Origin: Pseudobdellovibrionaceae bacterium
Lineage (GTDB): Bacteria; Bdellovibrionota; Bdellovibrionia; Bdellovibrionales; Bdellovibrionaceae
NCBI GenBank assembly: GCA_016785955.1
Contig: JAEUWH010000037.1
Span: 1-44,110 of the forward strand
DNA length: 44,110 bases
Direction of reading: 5' to 3'
Shown: positions 3,948 through 13,754 of the stretch, one piece after another
How the letters are laid out: every line of letters begins with the position of its first letter
Position numbering within the stretch: the first letter of the stretch is position 1
The notes under the pieces: model-generated
Seen by the model: the letters and a program-made list of their open reading frames with translations, nothing else
What the model was told of the DNA's origin: nothing
The model's database searches: none
Position numbers and translations under genes: made by a program

Positions 3948-4577
3948 ATGAATAGAAACGGTAGTATTATTTTAGGTTTTACGTTTACGATAATGATCGC
4001 AGCTTCGATCATGTTCTATTTCAAAGAATCTGAAATTCAAAACCAAATGAGCCAGATTAAACGTGAATCTTTGATTATCAATTTGGATATGCTCCGCTAT
4101 ACAATCGAGCGAGCATTCGAAGATCCGCGCGTTGTTTCAAGAACAATTCATGCAGCAGCCAATCAAACGGGCGCGGTTGGTTTATTAGAATGTCTGACGA
4201 ATCCCAACTCGATTTGTGAAAATATTGAAAAAGATTTAACTCTTGTCTCTCAACTTCCTGGAAGGATTATTCTTGATCCGACGGTCCAATCAAATGGGCA
4301 TTTCTTCGGTCTGGCATTTAAGGCGATGGAATGCGCTCTGCCTGCATGCAACAATCTGGTCTTGAAAGATTTTATTTGTGATTCATTTCAAACTTCTAGT
4401 GGCAGCAATGACTGTATTTTCCGACTGCGAACTTCATGGCGACCAATCTGCCCAGCGATCGGCGAATGTCGAAAACCTAAAATCGTATGGATGCTTAAGC
4501 TAGAGCAGAATACGGGAAGTACACTGCGAATAGGATCAATCAATCCAACACGGTACTATGTTGAAAAAATTTTTTAA
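3948..4577 (+). CDS. Minor pilin/pseudopilin-like protein lacking Glu5 (PilX/GspK-like N-terminus)
   Basis: A 209-aa protein with a short polar leader (MNRNG), one hydrophobic segment (about 6-25) and a periplasmic-type remainder. The start resembles class III-type prepilins cleaved after Gly5, but position +5 after the cleavage is Gly rather than Glu. In T2SS GspK and related minor pilins the absence of Glu5 marks the tip subunit; that is family knowledge, and its application here is inference. Residues 143-180 carry a Cys module (C-x3-F, DC-x-FR, W-x-P-x-C, C-x2-P) also present in the next two pilin-like proteins. It overlaps the following gene by 20 nt, so the two are one operon. No homologue is recognised outside the N-terminus. 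Confidence 0.6.
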   Translation: MNRNGSIILGFTFTIMIAASIMFYFKESEIQNQMSQIKRESLIINLDMLRYTIERAFEDPRVVSRTIHAAANQTGAVGLLECLTNPNSICENIEKDLTLVSQLPGRIILDPTVQSNGHFFGLAFKAMECALPACNNLVLKDFICDSFQTSSGSNDCIFRLRTSWRPICPAIGECRKPKIVWMLKLEQNTGSTLRIGSINPTRYYVEKIF

Positions 4578-5712
4578 ACCTAACCATGGATTTACACTTA
4601 TCGAAGCATTGATCGCGATCAACTTGATCGGAATCTCGATCTATTTCGGCTCATCTGCAATAGGCCAACTAACTAAACTAAAAAATAATTCGCAGATGTA
4701 CATGAACGTAAATCTTGCAAAGCGAAATCTTCTTACGATGCTTCAGAACAACACAGCATGGCTGTATTCGATAAATGGCAATGGCAGCGAATTCGATTGC
4801 CTGAAAAATATTACAGGCTCACAAAGCGATCCCGGCTGCGAATTAAAAAATGATCTTAATGGTTATCCTTTCATTCTCTACAATGATTCTAATGGAGTTT
4901 ACTATGACCCGATCAACTCGCCGACGGCTGGTTTTGATAATAACGGCGAAGTTTGCAATACATTTGATTCTGTTAGAGGAAACCCCGGCTGTCCTTATCG
5001 AGCGACATTCCGCTGGAGACCAGTCTGTGACTTTAGTCCAGGTATAAAGTGTCACCAACCATCCGTTGAAATTATCGGTGAAATTTTCATCAAAAAAAAT
5101 ACGAACATATTTAATATTCAAAAGACCAGCTACTCGTTTCAACTGATCCGACCCTTTGTAAATTGTCCTAGCCAAAGTTTAAATTTTCGTCCAGCGGCAG
5201 GGCAGTGGTTTGAAAATCCTGTGTCTTCCAACGGCCAAATAAACGGCACTTTTCTAACTACTTCGGATACGAACTCGCCAACAATCATGTTTTTTGAATA
5301 TCATACACAGATTTTTTCTTGTGAAAACCGCTCTCTAAACTTTCGTTTGAAAACTCAGCTCACTGGGGGAGTCGCCGTCGGCGATGCCGCAAACACCAGC
5401 CGAGTTTGCCTATCTGATCCAAATCAATCCCATATATGTATATACGAATGGCTTCATGAACAAAATAGTTGGTCCCTGTGGCAAAGAAACTCTTCAACAA
5501 ATTTGATGGAACGTGTTTATACAAAACCAGTTGGACCTAAGCCAACATTTAACACGAATACGGTTTTCACGTTCAGTTCGAAAAAAGGAATGATTCAATT
5601 TTATGTCGATTCAGAGTTGTACTATGTATTCACACTGCCTTGGCTAAGAAACTATTCATACAAAATTAGACCGACACCCTCAAACTATTCGCAAGGTATC
5701 GAGCCATTTTGA
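4558..5712 (+). CDS. Prepilin-type N-terminal methylation protein with large C-terminal domain
   Basis: 384 aa. The N-terminus is a textbook prepilin leader: basic MLKKFFKPNHG, then FTLIEALIA, so PilD-like cleavage after Gly11 leaves Phe1 and Glu5. A hydrophobic helix runs to about residue 35. Residues 60-70 (MLQNNTAW) and the Cys module at 125-170 match the giant pilin-like protein encoded on the other strand. The remaining ~180 residues (about 200-384) are rich in Asn, Ser and aromatic residues and look beta-structured; a lectin-like fold is possible but I cannot show it. At 384 aa it is longer than most pseudopilins. Its ATG lies inside the preceding gene, implying translational coupling. 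It converges on the giant gene with 9 nt between. Confidence 0.75.
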   Translation: MLKKFFKPNHGFTLIEALIAINLIGISIYFGSSAIGQLTKLKNNSQMYMNVNLAKRNLLTMLQNNTAWLYSINGNGSEFDCLKNITGSQSDPGCELKNDLNGYPFILYNDSNGVYYDPINSPTAGFDNNGEVCNTFDSVRGNPGCPYRATFRWRPVCDFSPGIKCHQPSVEIIGEIFIKKNTNIFNIQKTSYSFQLIRPFVNCPSQSLNFRPAAGQWFENPVSSNGQINGTFLTTSDTNSPTIMFFEYHTQIFSCENRSLNFRLKTQLTGGVAVGDAANTSRVCLSDPNQSHICIYEWLHEQNSWSLWQRNSSTNLMERVYTKPVGPKPTFNTNTVFTFSSKKGMIQFYVDSELYYVFTLPWLRNYSYKIRPTPSNYSQGIEPF

Positions 5713-5721
5713 AATACGTAT

Positions 5722-8700
5722 CTAGCGAGCCACTAATACCTCGGGAATAATAGTTCCCTTGTTACTCAGAGAGTCATATTGAAAAACTCCGGGGCTGACT
5801 CCACGATTAATAACACCGTTCTCAACTATTTTTTCTTCAGATTTTTGGCCTACACTAAAGTTTCCACGCTCGACTTCTAGTCTTTTAGTCACTTTCATTC
5901 CACAACTATTCAGGTTCAAATTTCCATTTTTAATGGTGACGCTTTCAAACACAAATGTCGACGCCGAACGTTCACGGCAATCTAAGTGTAACACCCCTAC
6001 GGCGCTGCCTACTTTTTTATTGATCTCAATATTAAATGTACCGACCCGTCCACCATCACTGGACATCACGGAATACAGTGTTTGCGTACCCACACCGGAA
6101 AATACCAGTTTCGCTCGGTCTACATCCGAGGTCACACGATCAAAATTACCAGCGTAATATACATTACTATTTCCAATAAGCTTTAGGGTTCCATTAGACA
6201 CGACCCCATTATTATGCGCTCCATTTGGATTAGGTAAATTTAAACCATCCGTAATTTCAATTGTGGAGCTATTTAGATTTAGACTGCGCTGAATATGCAA
6301 TCCTTTTATCCTCAATGTTTTAGAAGGCAAGCCATCTAGATCTAATATGCCATACCCTGGAGAACAACAGTCGTTCGAGTTTGCGAACGCAAGTATGGCA
6401 TTACTTGCGTCAATACCGCCACCTCGCTTCACAACACGAAATCGCCCCATAAAGCCAATAGCACCTGTCATAATCACTTTCCCAGCCCTCTTATTTATCT
6501 CCACGTGAACTAAGTATCCTTTTGCCGCTGGGATGTTTGTCGTGATTTCCGTACTTATATCATCCATATTTAATACATTTTTAAAGTTGTCATCAGAGTT
6601 ACCAATAATACGTTGATTTTTTGTCCCTGTTAGCTCGATAGTAACAAGACCGTTACTATCATAGTCATTTCCGCCAGAATTAGCATAGACATCACCTTCA
6701 ACATAAATTTTATGAGTGTGTGGCCCAAAAGGATAACCACCACACACGGTGGTGTATTTTTTCTTATCTTGAATAAAATCACCCGTGACTCGAATATCAG
6801 TTTCAATATTTATATAAGAACACTGAGGGGCAAATTCCAAATTCGGAAATACCAGCTGTGCAGCTGAGGTATTCCTGATAAACATTTGATTCCACGCGGC
6901 CGAAAACTCGACAACTTGCTTGTCACCTACCGCTCGTTCTTCGTCATCGTAAAACTTCATCGTTCCACGCTTGATATCGATACCTGTGTTAATCCCCAAG
7001 TCACCTTTAATATGAGTGATTCCGGCTGGTTTATCGATCGTCAATATTGGCAAACGACCAATTTTAGTGCGGTCTTTATTTCCATTTAGGTCCAAATTAG
7101 AATAGATGTATTGATCCAAGTTTCCATTCATAATGAAATTTGCATAGCCCCATCCCGGCACACCATTAACCATAAATCCGCCGCTGCCATGCAGATAGAT
7201 ATTACGCGAAACATAGATATTTCCGTCCCCACTATCGATCAAACTGCGTATTTGATTTTCTCCCCCGGTCTGGTACAGATAGAAATCTTTAACATTAAAA
7301 TTTCCTACAATGCCGTACTCATAACCACCACTACCATCGAAGGCAAATTGGCTAAAAGAAACACCATTCGCATCAATCGTGTTTCCGCCATTCCAACGAG
7401 AAAACACGGTGACTCGTCCATTTTGGTTATAAAACTGACTTGCACTCCCAATCAAATTATATCCTGAATACACACTCAAATTTTCAGGAGCATAAAATTT
7501 TCCACCTTCAATTCCCATATGACCGAACCCTTGTAGCATCATAGTCGGACGAACTTGAAAATTTAGCTGCACACTGGTGCTGTACTCATCACGGACAATT
7601 GAAATAGACTTATTTTGCAAATAAACTTCGTCCATTAATAAATTTGCTTTCGAATTTGCACCAATAAACGATCCCCCCCGTTGCCAAAATGCATACTTTA
7701 ATTCGGGATCATCACTTTTACGACTATATGAATTACGCAGAACAACGATATTTAAATCATCAACTTGTTTAATTTCACCAGGGAAATTTTCTGCAATTTC
7801 GATTGCATTTACACGAATAGCCCCGCTGGGAGTAGAGGAATAAAGACCTTTCAATAAAACATCGCATTTTATACAAGTATCATTAAACACCAAACTGGCA
7901 GAATGCATATCAGTGTCTTTAACTAAATCAATTTTCTTAGACGGGTCAGCATCAAAATGTGTGCATTCGCCATTTACCACAGTTCCACACCAGTTTCTTT
8001 TATCGTATAACGAATACCATTTTTTTCCCGTTAAAGAATTTGTTTCCTCGATACTACCTTCACCAATCCATGTGTACGGTGTCATAACTTTAACCCACAC
8101 GACACCATCCGATTTGGTCACCTTATCAAAAAGGTTTTGTTCGATCGTGTAGTAGACTTTATCTATACCGTAAAAATTTGGTTTCGGAGTGTACCTGATT
8201 TTATTTTTTTGAATCGACACCGTAGAACCAATAGCAGATTCCACCGTTTTAACTTTTAGATTGAAAGTATCTACAGCGTAATTTGTCTTAAGAACATTGA
8301 TCTCTACTTGGGGATCATTGATATTCACTAAATATGTCGAATCTCTGGGCGCAATTTCTACACTTTGGGGAAGATTGACATTCAAATTAAATTTTTTTTC
8401 TGCATTAAGAACAGGTTTAGTTTGATACTTTGTGATTTGCTTCACCAAAACGGTTGCCATCGGCTCTGTGCAATTGGCATTTTTCAAACAGGGCAGGTCC
8501 CAAGACACTTCGTAACGTGTCGGGCAGCTATCACTTCCATGAGTTGCATCAAAACCGAAACACTTCACACCTTCAGGTGTAAAACCAACGCTTTGTCCAT
8601 GGTCGTCTTTTTCATTCTGATCATAAATAACCGTCCCAGATCCGTCACCACTGACAATTCTAAATTTATTATCAACTTTAGAGCAATCTACCGGCTCGAC

Positions 8701-8979
8701 AGCATCTGGATGAGGATTTAATGACAACTTACAAGAATAGAATGCATAATTTTGCACATCCAACACGGTCGCCTTCCACATCGTTGGATTATTCATAAGT
8801 TCTAAAAAATCATAATTCTTTCTGGCAGCGATAGTATTGTCAGATAACTTCTTATTTTCAAAATTCATCTGCGTAAAAAAAATGTTCAGAGTCAAAATCG
8901 CCATCGCCGTAATAAACACCGAAAACAACAGTTCGATAGCAGTTAAACCTTTTGAATTATGTACAAAATTTATTCTCAT
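5722..8979 (-). CDS. Giant prepilin-like surface protein with Ig/cadherin-like and repetitive beta ectodomain
   Basis: 1085 aa beginning with a prepilin signal: MRINFVHNSKG, then LTAIELLFS, placing Glu at +5 after cleavage at Gly11, with a hydrophobic helix to about 35. MNNPTMW at about 62-68 and a Cys module at 132-176 match the neighbouring pilin-like proteins. Residues ~214-285 resemble a cadherin/bacterial Ig-like domain (IRYTPKPNFYGIDKVYYTIE). From ~302 (YTWIGEG) to the end the sequence is Gly/Asn-rich with recurring short beta-strand patterns, as in beta-solenoid passenger domains of adhesins. Pilins are normally 120-250 aa, so this would be a fibre or tip subunit carrying a very large extracellular payload. 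Starts at ATG; hypothetical in detail. Confidence 0.75.
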   Translation of the reverse strand: MRINFVHNSKGLTAIELLFSVFITAMAILTLNIFFTQMNFENKKLSDNTIAARKNYDFLELMNNPTMWKATVLDVQNYAFYSCKLSLNPHPDAVEPVDCSKVDNKFRIVSGDGSGTVIYDQNEKDDHGQSVGFTPEGVKCFGFDATHGSDSCPTRYEVSWDLPCLKNANCTEPMATVLVKQITKYQTKPVLNAEKKFNLNVNLPQSVEIAPRDSTYLVNINDPQVEINVLKTNYAVDTFNLKVKTVESAIGSTVSIQKNKIRYTPKPNFYGIDKVYYTIEQNLFDKVTKSDGVVWVKVMTPYTWIGEGSIEETNSLTGKKWYSLYDKRNWCGTVVNGECTHFDADPSKKIDLVKDTDMHSASLVFNDTCIKCDVLLKGLYSSTPSGAIRVNAIEIAENFPGEIKQVDDLNIVVLRNSYSRKSDDPELKYAFWQRGGSFIGANSKANLLMDEVYLQNKSISIVRDEYSTSVQLNFQVRPTMMLQGFGHMGIEGGKFYAPENLSVYSGYNLIGSASQFYNQNGRVTVFSRWNGGNTIDANGVSFSQFAFDGSGGYEYGIVGNFNVKDFYLYQTGGENQIRSLIDSGDGNIYVSRNIYLHGSGGFMVNGVPGWGYANFIMNGNLDQYIYSNLDLNGNKDRTKIGRLPILTIDKPAGITHIKGDLGINTGIDIKRGTMKFYDDEERAVGDKQVVEFSAAWNQMFIRNTSAAQLVFPNLEFAPQCSYINIETDIRVTGDFIQDKKKYTTVCGGYPFGPHTHKIYVEGDVYANSGGNDYDSNGLVTIELTGTKNQRIIGNSDDNFKNVLNMDDISTEITTNIPAAKGYLVHVEINKRAGKVIMTGAIGFMGRFRVVKRGGGIDASNAILAFANSNDCCSPGYGILDLDGLPSKTLRIKGLHIQRSLNLNSSTIEITDGLNLPNPNGAHNNGVVSNGTLKLIGNSNVYYAGNFDRVTSDVDRAKLVFSGVGTQTLYSVMSSDGGRVGTFNIEINKKVGSAVGVLHLDCRERSASTFVFESVTIKNGNLNLNSCGMKVTKRLEVERGNFSVGQKSEEKIVENGVINRGVSPGVFQYDSLSNKGTIIPEVLVAR

Positions 8980-9049
8980 AGGTTTTCTCCCATGAGCTAG
9001 TCTTCGGTCGAGAGCCAGATTTGCTTTAATGATCTCAAATAAACACAGG

Positions 9050-9074
9050 AGAGCGTCTCGGGATGAAACGCTCT
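9050..9074. other. Hairpin between the M28 peptidase and giant pilin-like genes
   Basis: AGAGCGTCTC and GAAACGCTCT form a 10-bp stem (one wobble) around a 5-nt loop. It lies downstream of the peptidase stop and upstream of the giant gene, both reverse strand. Neither direction has a clear T-tract, so it is a poor intrinsic terminator but may be a processing or attenuation element. Confidence 0.5.
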
Positions 9075-9093
9075 ATTTCAAAATGAGGCTGTT

Positions 9094-10329
9094 TTAAATA
9101 TTTGGCGGAACCAAAGTCGTATTTTGACTCAGCTCCATCGCCAATGCAATTGCGTAATGAGTAAATAATAAGGAGTGATCGAAGTTCAACTTTGGAGTGA
9201 TGATGTCATTTCTGGAATGAATTGCGGAATTCATTTTTTTCATCGATGCTTCAAAAGGCATCAAAGTATGAAAGCCTTGACGGTACCAAGATGCATGGTC
9301 TGAACATCCGTACCCACAGCGATCGTCTACAATCTGTGCCTTTACGTAATGCGCATTTAACGACGCCAAAATCGATCTCATCCAAGCACTGGTGTAATCC
9401 GTCATGCTGGCAATCACGCGCGGTCCATCACCTGGGAACAATGTCATATCCAGTTGCAAGACACCTACGACTTTCTTATTCAGCTTTTTATATTCAGCCG
9501 CAATCTCTGCCGAACCCAGAAGACCAGACTCTTCCCCCGCATACCAGAAAATCTCGATGGTACGGGCACCCGCGGGTTGAGACATCAATACCCGCAAAGC
9601 TTCTAACAAATTCGAAGACCCAGAAGCATTGTCATCAACCCCTGGTGCGCGATCGCCATCAAAGCTGATTGAATCCAAGTGCCCACCTAAAACCACAATC
9701 TCGTCGGAACGAGTTGTCCCGGGCAAAGTGACCTTTAAAGATTTTTGCTTGGTTTGTTTATGATCCACCATAGAAACCATTACTTGACGTTTTGATCGTA
9801 AACGCATTTGCTCGATCAAGCCTTTGAGTTGAACAACGTGATTGTTCGGTTCTGCACTTTTATTGTATCGATTGGGAAATGAACTCAGCCAATTCACCCA
9901 TTTTGTAAGCTGCTCTTTATTCGCCGTTTGAATGGCTGAAGCAATCTCTTGACGAAATGGCAATTGCACCGGACTGACGGGGCCAGAAGCCCAAACTTGA
10001 TCACGACGTAAACGCTCTTTAATGTAACTCATTCGTAGGGTGACATTTCGAGTAACAGCCGGGTCAAAATCTTGGATAACTTCAAAACCGCCACATTTTC
10101 CATATCGATGAGCCAGCAAACTTAGACGCCTTTGCGCATCAGGATTGAGATATGTAAATCCCAAATTAATCTGAGGATCTTGAATAATAATTGGAACCCC
10201 GATTCCTCGAAGTAAATGTAAATCGGCCAAGACCGGCAGTGTCTGATTCGAGGTTACAATATGCGCATAGGCACCTGTGTTGACGAAAAATAAGAAGCCC
10301 ATAAATAATTTTATAAAATGCTTTTTCAT
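9094..10329 (-). CDS. Secreted M28 family zinc aminopeptidase (leucyl aminopeptidase type)
   Basis: 411 aa with a signal peptide (about 1-22, ending AYA). The M28 metal set is complete: His217 in GGHLDS, Asp232 in PGVDDNASG, catalytic Glu266 and metal Glu267 in WYAGEESG, Asp294 in LQLDM, and His371 in AIHSRND. Cys338 and Cys342 (CGYGC) match the disulfide near the active site of the Aeromonas/Vibrio enzymes, the best-known relatives. The role is removal of N-terminal residues from peptides in the periplasm or outside the cell. Residues 23-200 form a pro-region-like segment that I do not recognise. ATG is preceded by AGGAAGGG. It is divergent from the transporter-HEAT gene, with about 100 nt between. 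Confidence 0.88.
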   Translation of the reverse strand: MKKHFIKLFMGFLFFVNTGAYAHIVTSNQTLPVLADLHLLRGIGVPIIIQDPQINLGFTYLNPDAQRRLSLLAHRYGKCGGFEVIQDFDPAVTRNVTLRMSYIKERLRRDQVWASGPVSPVQLPFRQEIASAIQTANKEQLTKWVNWLSSFPNRYNKSAEPNNHVVQLKGLIEQMRLRSKRQVMVSMVDHKQTKQKSLKVTLPGTTRSDEIVVLGGHLDSISFDGDRAPGVDDNASGSSNLLEALRVLMSQPAGARTIEIFWYAGEESGLLGSAEIAAEYKKLNKKVVGVLQLDMTLFPGDGPRVIASMTDYTSAWMRSILASLNAHYVKAQIVDDRCGYGCSDHASWYRQGFHTLMPFEASMKKMNSAIHSRNDIITPKLNFDHSLLFTHYAIALAMELSQNTTLVPPNI

Positions 10330-10432: not shown

Positions 10433-12652
10433 GTGCCAGCAAAGTTAAAAAGTTGGGTGTTCAAACTCAACTCGATTGAAACCAAATTTATTTCTCTTGG
10501 ATTACTATTCGGAGCAGCCATCGGCGTTGCACGAGCCCAATCTTACTCGGACTTCTTAGTTCATGTCGATGCGCTGTGGACCTTACCGGCCTTGTTACTG
10601 AGCGAATTAATTTATCTCCCTATCATCCGTGCCCCTAGAGTCAATGAACGTTTGGCTCCCTCGATCGCGACAACGGGACTAGTATTCTCGGTTTTGTTTT
10701 TCCTGAATGGTTTTAATCCCAACGCTATCGTCGCCGCACTGGTTTTCTTTGTAATAACGGGATTAATTCGCAATCTCGTACGCTGGATGTTGACGGAAAT
10801 TTCATTACTCCATATGGGACGACTCAAAGCGAATGAACTTTCCTATTTTATTTCGGCCGCCCTGGACCTGGGATCCATTTTCGCGGTTGGTGCCACCATT
10901 ATTTTCAAAGCCGATACGATCACCAACCTGATGATGGTGGGCCTCTTATGGAGCAGCCTATTTTTATTCACCTGGTATTTATTCAACCATCACGAATCTT
11001 TTGAAATCAAATTAGCCTCGGAAGAATTTCCCGGCAGTTCTCAGGAGCCATTTTTTATTCGCAAAGTGAGCCATGCCTATATTTCACTTTGCCTGCTGAT
11101 TGGTTTTTTTTACGCGATTCAAGAATACGTTTGGCGATCAAATTTACAAGAGCTTGTAACAAACAAGGCGGACTATGTATACTACACCACGGTTTATGTT
11201 ATTGGGTCCAATTTATTGGGCGTGATCAGTGGGTGGTTCGCGGCCCAAGCAACCAGACGGACCAGAATCTCTCCCGAAAAAATTATTCATTATTTCATGC
11301 TCGCCAGTGCGCTGGGACTGTTGGTGTTTTCCATCACTCGTTCGATCTTGGGTGCGGTATTTTTGGGAATCGTTTGCTCGGCAACATTCCGAAATTTCTT
11401 CATCGCGGCCAATACAAATTTGATGTCGTGCTTTGACGACAAAACCCGTAGTGACTTCAGAAAATTGGGACAAATGGCCCTCTTTATCGCCCCTCTGGCC
11501 CCTGTATTCGGGCTCTCTTTCTTGATTCAACAACTGGCACCGGATTCAAAAATTATGGCTCTGGCCATCAGCTTGGGAGGTTTGTTGCTAACCGCAATAT
11601 ATTTTTCCAAACGCTACATTTTGCACCTAACAAATTTGATGTACCTGTTTCTTCACAGTCATGATCGCATTCGTCGAGTCAACGGTGCTATGCTGCTCAG
11701 TTTTCTGCGACCCAAAGGCTATGATCAATGGTTCAAAGATATTTTGGCCCAAAAGCCGAAGACATTGCTGATTAAAACAATTATCGAATCCTTAGCCTTC
11801 CACCCCACCAAAAAATCGATCAAGTTGATCACCTCGCAATTTTCCAATCCAAAAGAAGAAATTAAATTTGCGATTTGCGATGCTCTTAACCGTATCAACA
11901 AACCGCAGTCCATTTCCTTTCTGTTAGGCATTGCCCTAAACAAGAACGAGTCCTTTCGCGTCCGCCAAAAAGCTGTAAAATTATTGTATCGACGCATGAA
12001 AGTACATTTGATATCTGTTTTTTTAAATCGTCTAGAAACCGCAAAAAAAGATGAACGACGTATTATCATCGAAGGCCTTAGTGAAATCCAGAACCCAGAA
12101 TTATTCCATACGTTTCTTAGCAATTTAGATGACACACGACCTGATATTATTAAATTCGCTTTGATTGGTCTTTACAAATCATCGGACAATCGTTTGGCAT
12201 TTACTGAAAAAATTAACGAACTCATTCGCGAAGTCGAAAACCCCATGTTCGGCATCGCTTGCTTTGTCTTGGGAGAAGTGCGAGACGATCGTTGGCTTCC
12301 TACCATCCGCAGTCTAAGATTAAAAAATAAATCTAATATCATTTTTCAATCTTGGTACATGTACCGCATCGACGAGTCTTTGAAGAAAGAACAGATTGTT
12401 TTGATCAGAAATTTGATCAAAGATCAAAGCTTCCAAAAAGAACTCGTGAATTTGTTTGTGTACTTTAATCCACGCGATCGAATTAAAATTCTGTATAGTT
12501 TGGTCGTTAATGCACAACAGTTGGATCTTAGCATTACCAAATTAATCAATTTATTAAAAGACTTCGACTATGACTTTCACGAGGAAGTTCTGTTTCTTTT
12601 GAATTTGAAGAATCGCCAAGGCGACCGCACACTTCTTAGACGTACTGGATAG
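10433..12652 (+). CDS. Membrane transporter-like protein (ATP/ADP translocase or MFS fold) with HEAT-repeat C-terminus
   Basis: 739 aa. The first ~400 residues are strongly hydrophobic, roughly ten to twelve segments, with a layout like nucleotide translocases (NTT/Tlc) or major-facilitator proteins. Residues ~400-735 change to soluble amphipathic helix pairs resembling HEAT repeats (for example IKLITSQFSNPKEEIKFAI and the next units). Translocase-HEAT fusions are known in several bacteria, so the architecture is plausible, but the substrate cannot be read from the sequence. No signal peptide beyond the first membrane segment. The start is GTG at 10433 with no strong ribosome site, so the true start could differ slightly. 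It converges with the cyclase gene, 10 nt apart. Confidence 0.65.
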   Translation: MPAKLKSWVFKLNSIETKFISLGLLFGAAIGVARAQSYSDFLVHVDALWTLPALLLSELIYLPIIRAPRVNERLAPSIATTGLVFSVLFFLNGFNPNAIVAALVFFVITGLIRNLVRWMLTEISLLHMGRLKANELSYFISAALDLGSIFAVGATIIFKADTITNLMMVGLLWSSLFLFTWYLFNHHESFEIKLASEEFPGSSQEPFFIRKVSHAYISLCLLIGFFYAIQEYVWRSNLQELVTNKADYVYYTTVYVIGSNLLGVISGWFAAQATRRTRISPEKIIHYFMLASALGLLVFSITRSILGAVFLGIVCSATFRNFFIAANTNLMSCFDDKTRSDFRKLGQMALFIAPLAPVFGLSFLIQQLAPDSKIMALAISLGGLLLTAIYFSKRYILHLTNLMYLFLHSHDRIRRVNGAMLLSFLRPKGYDQWFKDILAQKPKTLLIKTIIESLAFHPTKKSIKLITSQFSNPKEEIKFAICDALNRINKPQSISFLLGIALNKNESFRVRQKAVKLLYRRMKVHLISVFLNRLETAKKDERRIIIEGLSEIQNPELFHTFLSNLDDTRPDIIKFALIGLYKSSDNRLAFTEKINELIREVENPMFGIACFVLGEVRDDRWLPTIRSLRLKNKSNIIFQSWYMYRIDESLKKEQIVLIRNLIKDQSFQKELVNLFVYFNPRDRIKILYSLVVNAQQLDLSITKLINLLKDFDYDFHEEVLFLLNLKNRQGDRTLLRRTG

Positions 12653-12662
12653 GAACAATTCA

Positions 12663-13754
12663 CTATCCTGCTTTGAACTGTATAATTTCTTGTGCTTCAC
12701 CCACGACATTAAAGGCTTTGACCGTTTTTTCGATGCCTTTCAATGTTATCGAGCCAATACTTTCGGTTTGGAACAAATGTTTATTGACCATTCTCTCTAG
12801 AAATCGATGCGAGACCAGTATCTGACCATTGTTCGCGTAATGACACATGCGTGAAGCAAAATTTGCGACCGGACCAATGACCGAGTATTGCCAGAAACGG
12901 TCAAAGCCAATTCCACCCATCGTCGCGTACCCCTCGGCCAATCCCAATCCAAAATCGATATGATATCCGCGGCTTTTCCAATTCACTTTTTGCTCGTTCA
13001 AAACTTGCCGAATTTCAAGAGCTAATTGCAAGCCGATGTCTTGATGATTAGGTGTGGGATGTGGATCATTCAAAAAAAGCATAATCCCATCACCCGCCAA
13101 ATGTCCCAATGTCGCTTGATATTTCAAAGCGCTGTTGCCAACAACCGTGTAGTAATTATTCAAAACATCTAACACTTCTTCAGGCTCGGCGTTTTCCGAA
13201 AAAGCCGTAAACCCACGCAAATCAGAAAACATCACCGTCACCTGGGCTCGGTGTAATTTCATGGCCCCGGGATTCTGATTTTCAATCACCAAATCGGCTA
13301 TATTCGGAGAAATAAATTTCGTCAAACGGCCAATTTGCTGGCGAGCTTGCATGCGAATGTTCAAAAGTGAATTCACCTTTGCCAGTAGTTCGTCATTACG
13401 AAATGGTTTTTGGATAAAATCGTCCGCTCCCGCATCTAACCCAATGGTTTTTTCATTAACCGCATCATTACCCGTAACCATCACAATGGGGATATGATCT
13501 TGCGAAAAATGACTTCGCACCGTTCGACACAGATCATAACCCGAAGCCCCTGGCATATTAATATCGGTGACAATTAAATCAAATTTTTTCTCTGAAAATG
13601 TGTTCGAGGACAGAAACAAACTTGCCGAGGCAAAGACGACTAACTCGTACCCTTGATGTTGCAATATGCTTGATAAAATATCACGAAACATTTCATCGTC
13701 GTCGACAACACAAATCAATGGCTTATTTTTCAGATCGATACTTCCTACGCTCAT
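12663..13754 (-). CDS. Response regulator with class III adenylate/guanylate cyclase output domain
   Basis: 363 aa. The receiver domain (about 12-133) has the acidic cluster Asp18-20, phospho-acceptor Asp64 (TDINMPG), Thr94 and Lys116. A class III cyclase domain (about 168-355) has metal aspartates Asp178 (FSDLRGFT) and Asp222 (AGDG) and the transition-state residues Asn298 and Arg302. The purine-selecting positions differ from textbook adenylyl cyclases: His replaces the Lys before the second metal Asp, and Pro295 replaces the usual Asp in the later motif, so the product is uncertain. It presumably converts a phosphorelay signal into a cyclic nucleotide. No sensor kinase is adjacent. Starts at ATG; ends 10 nt from the convergent transporter gene. 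Confidence 0.88.
   Translation of the reverse strand: MSVGSIDLKNKPLICVVDDDEMFRDILSSILQHQGYELVVFASASLFLSSNTFSEKKFDLIVTDINMPGASGYDLCRTVRSHFSQDHIPIVMVTGNDAVNEKTIGLDAGADDFIQKPFRNDELLAKVNSLLNIRMQARQQIGRLTKFISPNIADLVIENQNPGAMKLHRAQVTVMFSDLRGFTAFSENAEPEEVLDVLNNYYTVVGNSALKYQATLGHLAGDGIMLFLNDPHPTPNHQDIGLQLALEIRQVLNEQKVNWKSRGYHIDFGLGLAEGYATMGGIGFDRFWQYSVIGPVANFASRMCHYANNGQILVSHRFLERMVNKHLFQTESIGSITLKGIEKTVKAFNVVGEAQEIIQFKAG

Follow-up and report, generated by a model that had tools for sequence, protein, structure and literature searches.

A candidate modular pilus-tip cassette with a giant prepilin in a Pseudobdellovibrionaceae bacterium

The window analysed here is a 44,110-nt stretch of DNA corresponding to contig JAEUWH010000037.1 (C12) of a Pseudobdellovibrionaceae bacterium (GCA_016785955.1), whose draft genome comprises 4.34 Mb in 124 contigs. 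As proposed in an earlier note made from the sequence alone, it contains three pilin-like genes, one of them encoding a 1085-aa protein. Gene K (3948..4577, plus strand) encodes a small minor pilin of 209 aa that is likely the cap subunit, J (4558..5712, plus strand) encodes a prepilin of 384 aa, and G (5722..8979, minus strand) encodes the giant prepilin. The start of J sits 20 nt inside the end of K, an overlap that is also found in the same-genus relative G061, and the convergent genes J and G have stop codons 9 bp apart. All three ORFs are conserved as coding sequences when compared with G061 (57–68% amino acid identity), with differences concentrated at codon position 3. The window contains 37 non-redundant ORFs with a length of 100 aa or above, and only J and G have the strict class III prepilin pattern. 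A terminator-like hairpin with a 10-pair stem, identified as a consensus match only, lies between the upstream peptidase gene and G (9050..9074, minus strand), which suggests that G is its own transcription unit. The three genes had been described as lying together, and they are adjacent; a single operon for K, J and G in the window is ruled out by the minus-strand location of G and by the hairpin upstream of it. The neighbourhood also encodes a 739-aa protein that seems to have many membrane segments in its N-terminal part and has HEAT repeats at its C terminus (10433-12652, plus strand), the gene for which is found near the trio in both genus members, and a protein that joins a response-regulator receiver to the catalytic domain of an adenylate/guanylate cyclase (12663-13754, minus strand).

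The leader of K is short (MNRNG) and is followed by a hydrophobic helix. Its mature position 5 is Gly and not Glu, in agreement with the earlier note, and the mature protein would comprise 204 aa (23 kDa) if cut after Gly5. The K sequences of the five genomes in which the trio is found (see below) form one clade (support 98/96). The further description of K as GspK-like is not upheld. There are zero matches for K in NCBIfam at E up to 1 and nothing relevant in Pfam, GspK included, nor does K match GspK or PilX profiles. The genome has its own GspK-type gene, located on another contig in a separate type II secretion system (T2SS) pseudopilin operon (GspG-K), where it scores 116 bits, just under the GspK cut-off of 130.

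The leader of J is canonical (MLKKFFKPNHG|FTLIEALIAI) and Glu5 is present. A pilin head (residues ~12-200) is followed by a C-terminal domain (residues ~222-361), which in structure comparison aligns best with galectins and other folds of the ConA type (Z ~8, with a model pLDDT of 56). Foldseek places the model in the same class, at E above 0.02, while a PDB sequence search with the domain returned no match at E up to 10. An assignment to Laminin_G_3 by sequence is unsupported (hhalign 0.3%). It is the fold search alone that points to a galectin/ConA-like fold, which it suggests for the predicted domain. J has the leader of the prepilin with a large domain that had been proposed, and on the weak fold match it would be a modular pilin.

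Gene G likewise encodes a canonical leader (MRINFVHNSKG|LTAIELLFSV) with Glu5, and mature G is a protein of 1074 aa and 118.5 kDa with a pI of 6.2. Residues 1-204 (8368..8979, minus strand, as for all segments of G) comprise the leader, the pilin helix and a six-cysteine head common to J and K. Residues 205-302 (8074..8367) correspond to a Big_9 or Ig/cadherin-like domain, which scores 25.8 bits against the Pfam cut-off of 23.6 (E 2.1e-5) and is modelled with an Ig/cadherin fold (VIA-align Z 9.1, 82 aligned residues, 2.8 A). Big_9 is also above the cut-off in the giants of G061 and G035, and is weak in that of G113. From the end of the Ig domain, residues 303-485 (7525..8073) form the region of the signature MTPYTW(T/I)G...N(W/F)CG...C (NWCG in G), which itself starts at residue 299 and has invariant columns in two alignments; the signature also occurs in the lipoproteins described below. 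The remainder of the arm, at residues 486-1044 (5848..7524), is a region of all-beta repeats spanning ~560 residues after Big_9. Its repeat units (consensus G-x-x-x-Q-x-I ... INK-x-x-G) are found at ~619-648, 785-828 and 962-986, and two of them match each other with an hhalign value of 95.9%. The G model is weak overall (pLDDT 58.8), with repeat blocks that reach 80-89. Foldseek returned nothing for G at E below 1e-3, and among solved structures no homologue was found beyond the pilin helix and weak Ig matches. The prepilin-type protein with an Ig-like ectodomain proposed in the earlier note is borne out by leader pattern, Pfam score and model. Of its beta-solenoid-like region, the all-beta repeats are confirmed; no solenoid was matched in the PDB comparison, and a beta-solenoid-like arm is plausible only. 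Between the window and G061, identity is 65-66% in the head and 47% in the distal half of the repeats, so that the arm diverges faster than the head; the flanking ABC-F and M28 peptidase genes are 87% and 81% identical, respectively.

A separate profile was built for each of K, J and G from its five sequences, and the heads match pairwise by hhalign (K/J 98.8%, K/G 99.5%, J/G 99.6%). By this profile comparison, K, J and G clearly carry one homologous pilin head. Across a 28-row head alignment, G11, C133 and C145 (J numbering) are invariant and C81, C94, C157 and C165 nearly so. Among solved structures, the head profile matches type IV pilins in their N-terminal helices, and in several of these its position 9 falls on residue 1 of the mature chain, which is consistent with cleavage after the conserved Gly. 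A single origin of the giants' heads is neither shown nor rejected (AU p 0.23).

Full-length relatives of J were found among 141 genomes of the order in the window, G061, G035, G042 (two copies) and G113, and each of these five Bdellovibrionales genomes has K, J and a leader-bearing G. The gene order is K>J><G in the window and G061, <J<K G> in G035, and G>K>J> in G042 and G113. In G042, G and K overlap by 4 nt and K and J by 8 nt, so a single operon of all three is likely there. The giants comprise 1085 (window), 1084, 770, 1099 and 1023 aa, and the leader is retained in all five, although the +5 residue in G035 is Asp. The flanks shared by the window and G061 (helicase, ABC-F and M28 peptidase genes) differ outside the genus, being aromatic/quinone genes in G113 and an unrelated block in G035. 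As the trio has been kept together through rearrangements and changed flanks, a joint function is the best explanation, and the linkage in five genomes supports the interpretation of K, J and G as a functional unit.

The payload of G is found on another carrier. A payload-only query, with the head removed, was searched against 369 genomes of the phylum and recovered the five pilins together with proteins that have N termini of signal-peptide and lipobox-like type in G113, G107, G136, G064, G058 and the window's own genome. Two of these, a 1473-aa lipoprotein on contig C17 of the same genome as the trio (L134:4367-8788) and a 994-aa lipoprotein in G113 (L126:5907-8891), have the Ig domain, the MTPYTWTG signature and the beta-repeats without a pilin helix. 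The payload of the G113 pilin shares 42.5% identity over 788 columns with that of the 994-aa lipoprotein, against ~22-32% with those of other pilins, and the two group together in the payload tree (100/100). The AU test rejects a tree in which all pilin payloads form one clade (p 6e-6), a result to be taken with caution because some branches are long. The G113 pairing and the rejection of a single clade indicate that the payload changed carrier at least once; the nesting of the G113 payload is weakly supported (63/52) and decides neither for a move from pilin to lipoprotein nor for the reverse. The earlier note had named relatives with an unlinked or leaderless giant as counter-evidence. No full-length giant of either kind was found, all five being linked and leader-bearing, and it is the payload alone that occurs elsewhere, on lipoproteins.

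Among the matches listed at E up to 1e-15, the head profile is found in ~43 of 242 Bdellovibrionota genomes, and many further weak matches cover the helix only. Head pilins commonly lie side by side in twos or threes, and many of these clusters have a member in which the +5 residue is none of Glu, Asp and Gln. The C-terminal modules found on the same head elsewhere comprise RCC1 repeats (twice in G065), Laminin_G_3 (G065), TSP1 (contig C22 of the window's own genome) and Calx-beta (G127). In G065, two cassettes contain RCC1-repeat pilins (L041:6218-8155; L042:6619-8535, 8575-9813), one of which lies beside the Laminin_G_3 pilin. On C22, a second head-family pilin trio (L032:4915-8125) has as its third member a 540-aa protein with TSP1 repeats (Pfam TSP1_spondin, 3e-12). 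Contig C11 of the same genome encodes an 817-aa prepilin with a C-terminal Peptidase_S74 chaperone domain (L094:409-2862), a domain that is used by Bdellovibrio MAT fibres (PMC10769870). In G035, G046 and G048 (L035, L039 and L043), cassettes of head pilins that differ in their modules are located close to shared, conserved neighbours (44-76% and 60% identical), as if a single chromosomal site hosted different tip cassettes in these genomes.

The genome that harbours the trio encodes a PilB (733 bits; cut-off 676), a PilM (185 bits; cut-off 133), a PilQ (317 bits; cut-off 284) and a PilC-type protein. A PilT-like ATPase and, upstream of pilM, a prepilin-peptidase-like gene were identified by inspection only. 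Between pilB and pilC on contig C7 is a gene for a 240-aa PilT-family protein (L107:4286-5008) that looks degenerate: its match to the PilT model is confined to the C-terminal two thirds and scores far below the cut-off. Tad-like genes are found elsewhere in the genome (L110, L111), and none lies beside the trio. From this complement we infer that the machine of the trio would be a type IVa pilus. No PilY1 gene is found in the trio or its neighbours, and PF05567 (PilY1) was found in none of 290 phylum genomes, in a search run without a working positive-control genome.

The assembly of type 4 filaments begins with a complex of minor pilins that has a Glu5-less cap subunit (PMC10191384), and the tip of the Streptococcus sanguinis pilus comprises a Glu5-less PilA with the modular pilins PilB and PilC, the latter bearing a lectin together with an Ig-like module (PMC9934059). 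We consider it probable that K, J and G form a PilABC-like modular minor-pilin tip complex of a type IVa pilus, with K as the cap and J and G as adhesive modules, because the trio shares the plan of PilABC in its sequence features: a small Glu5-less pilin and two large modular pilins with linked genes (PMC9934059, PMC8179133). The modules of PilABC are a ConA-like lectin and an Ig-like domain on PilC and a vWA domain on PilB. The likeness is one of plan, with no claim of homology, and there are differences. The host of PilABC is monoderm and that of the trio diderm; the giant of the trio bears an Ig domain and long all-beta repeats and may be transcribed separately; and in the trio the three heads show clear mutual homology. 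In the HIJK minor pilins with PilY1, a Glu5-less cap and an adhesin-bearing tip complex are likewise found (PMC10191384), whereas the payload here is part of a pilin. As the earlier note proposed, the payload is fused to the pilin, and the trio's neighbourhood has no PilY1 gene.

If the tip assembles in this way, a prepilin peptidase would cut the leaders and the Glu5-less K would be placed at the very tip, with J and G stacked below it via their homologous pilin helices and heads. The lectin-like domain of J and the Ig/all-beta arm of G could then extend outward at the end of the pilus and serve as binding modules, and retraction would draw whatever surface or cell is bound towards the bacterium. 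Adhesion, and any role of the trio in predation, are inferred; prey or other glycans as the ligand would be a guess from the lifestyle of relatives. The tip complex suggested in the earlier note is supported, in that three homologous minor pilins, one of them Glu5-less, occur together in five genomes despite rearrangement.

Other explanations could account for parts of this pattern. Thermus ComZ, a large minor pilin bearing a beta-solenoid module, has been suggested to bind DNA (PMC8179133), and the distal part of G consists of all-beta repeats, so that G could act like ComZ in a DNA-uptake tip serving natural transformation. We regard this as quite unlikely, since mature G is not basic, the modules found in sister cassettes are of the lectin, TSP1 and RCC1 kinds, and the occurrence of the payload on lipoproteins fits a general surface binding module better. 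The absence of Glu5 from K, as from GspK, and the comparable tip built by T2SS minor pseudopilins (PMC10191384) would also fit a trio that caps the T2SS pseudopilus or forms another secretion pseudopilus instead of an adhesive pilus. That the genome has its GspG-K operon on another contig, that K matches no GspK model, and that pseudopilins do not typically bear large exposed modules make this very improbable.

The cassette could also be real with G outside the K-J complex, either because the main role of its helix is to anchor or export the ectodomain or because G tips a different filament. Some 20 prepilins are encoded in the genome, along with several machines for type 4 filaments, and G appears to be transcribed separately from K and J in the window and in G035. 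Against this, the linkage survives rearrangement in all five genomes and the three genes overlap in G042, and we consider a separate G unlikely.

The earlier note knew of no adhesion system with this composition, a view that is contradicted by S. sanguinis PilABC, which has the plan (PMC9934059), and by the wide occurrence of modular pilins, of which one survey counted over 1,200 in 264 architectures (PMC8179133). As in CofB and Thermus ComZ, among other modular pilins, the non-pilus module of G is C-terminal to the pilin module (PMC8179133). Giants of 1085-1099 aa exceed the 860-residue example that PMC8179133 singles out as most extreme, a distinction given there for domain number. Compared with modular pilins generally, the trio belongs to recurrent cassettes with a common six-cysteine head. 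The Tad/Kil pilus of Myxococcus also has tips of three pilins that can be interchanged, with several KilLMN clusters in one predator genome and one member large with a variable domain (PMC12075869), much as here; unlike KilLMN, the trio has class III leaders of the T4aP/T2SS type and no Tad genes nearby. In the same phylum, Bdellovibrio MAT fibres also combine a conserved anchor with swapped adhesive ends and S74 domains (PMC10769870), but these are trimeric fibres with ordinary signal peptides and not pilins. Among the open-access papers searched, none pairing modular pilins with Bdellovibrio was found. With the PilABC-like plan already known, we rate as the new part the diderm, T4aP-type cassettes with a common head and exchangeable payload.

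More tentatively, the Bdellovibrionota may possess interchangeable tip cassettes with six-cysteine heads, in which payloads are traded between pilus tips and surface lipoproteins, yielding evolvable recognition heads on retractable filaments; we hold this to be possible, at somewhat less than even odds. If the interpretation of the trio is correct, a PilABC-type adhesive pilus tip with swappable cassettes would occur in a diderm phylum known for predators, and the same binding module would be borne either by a pilin or by a lipoprotein. The trio and its relatives would then be concrete candidates for pilus-based recognition of cells or surfaces, a step that is poorly understood.
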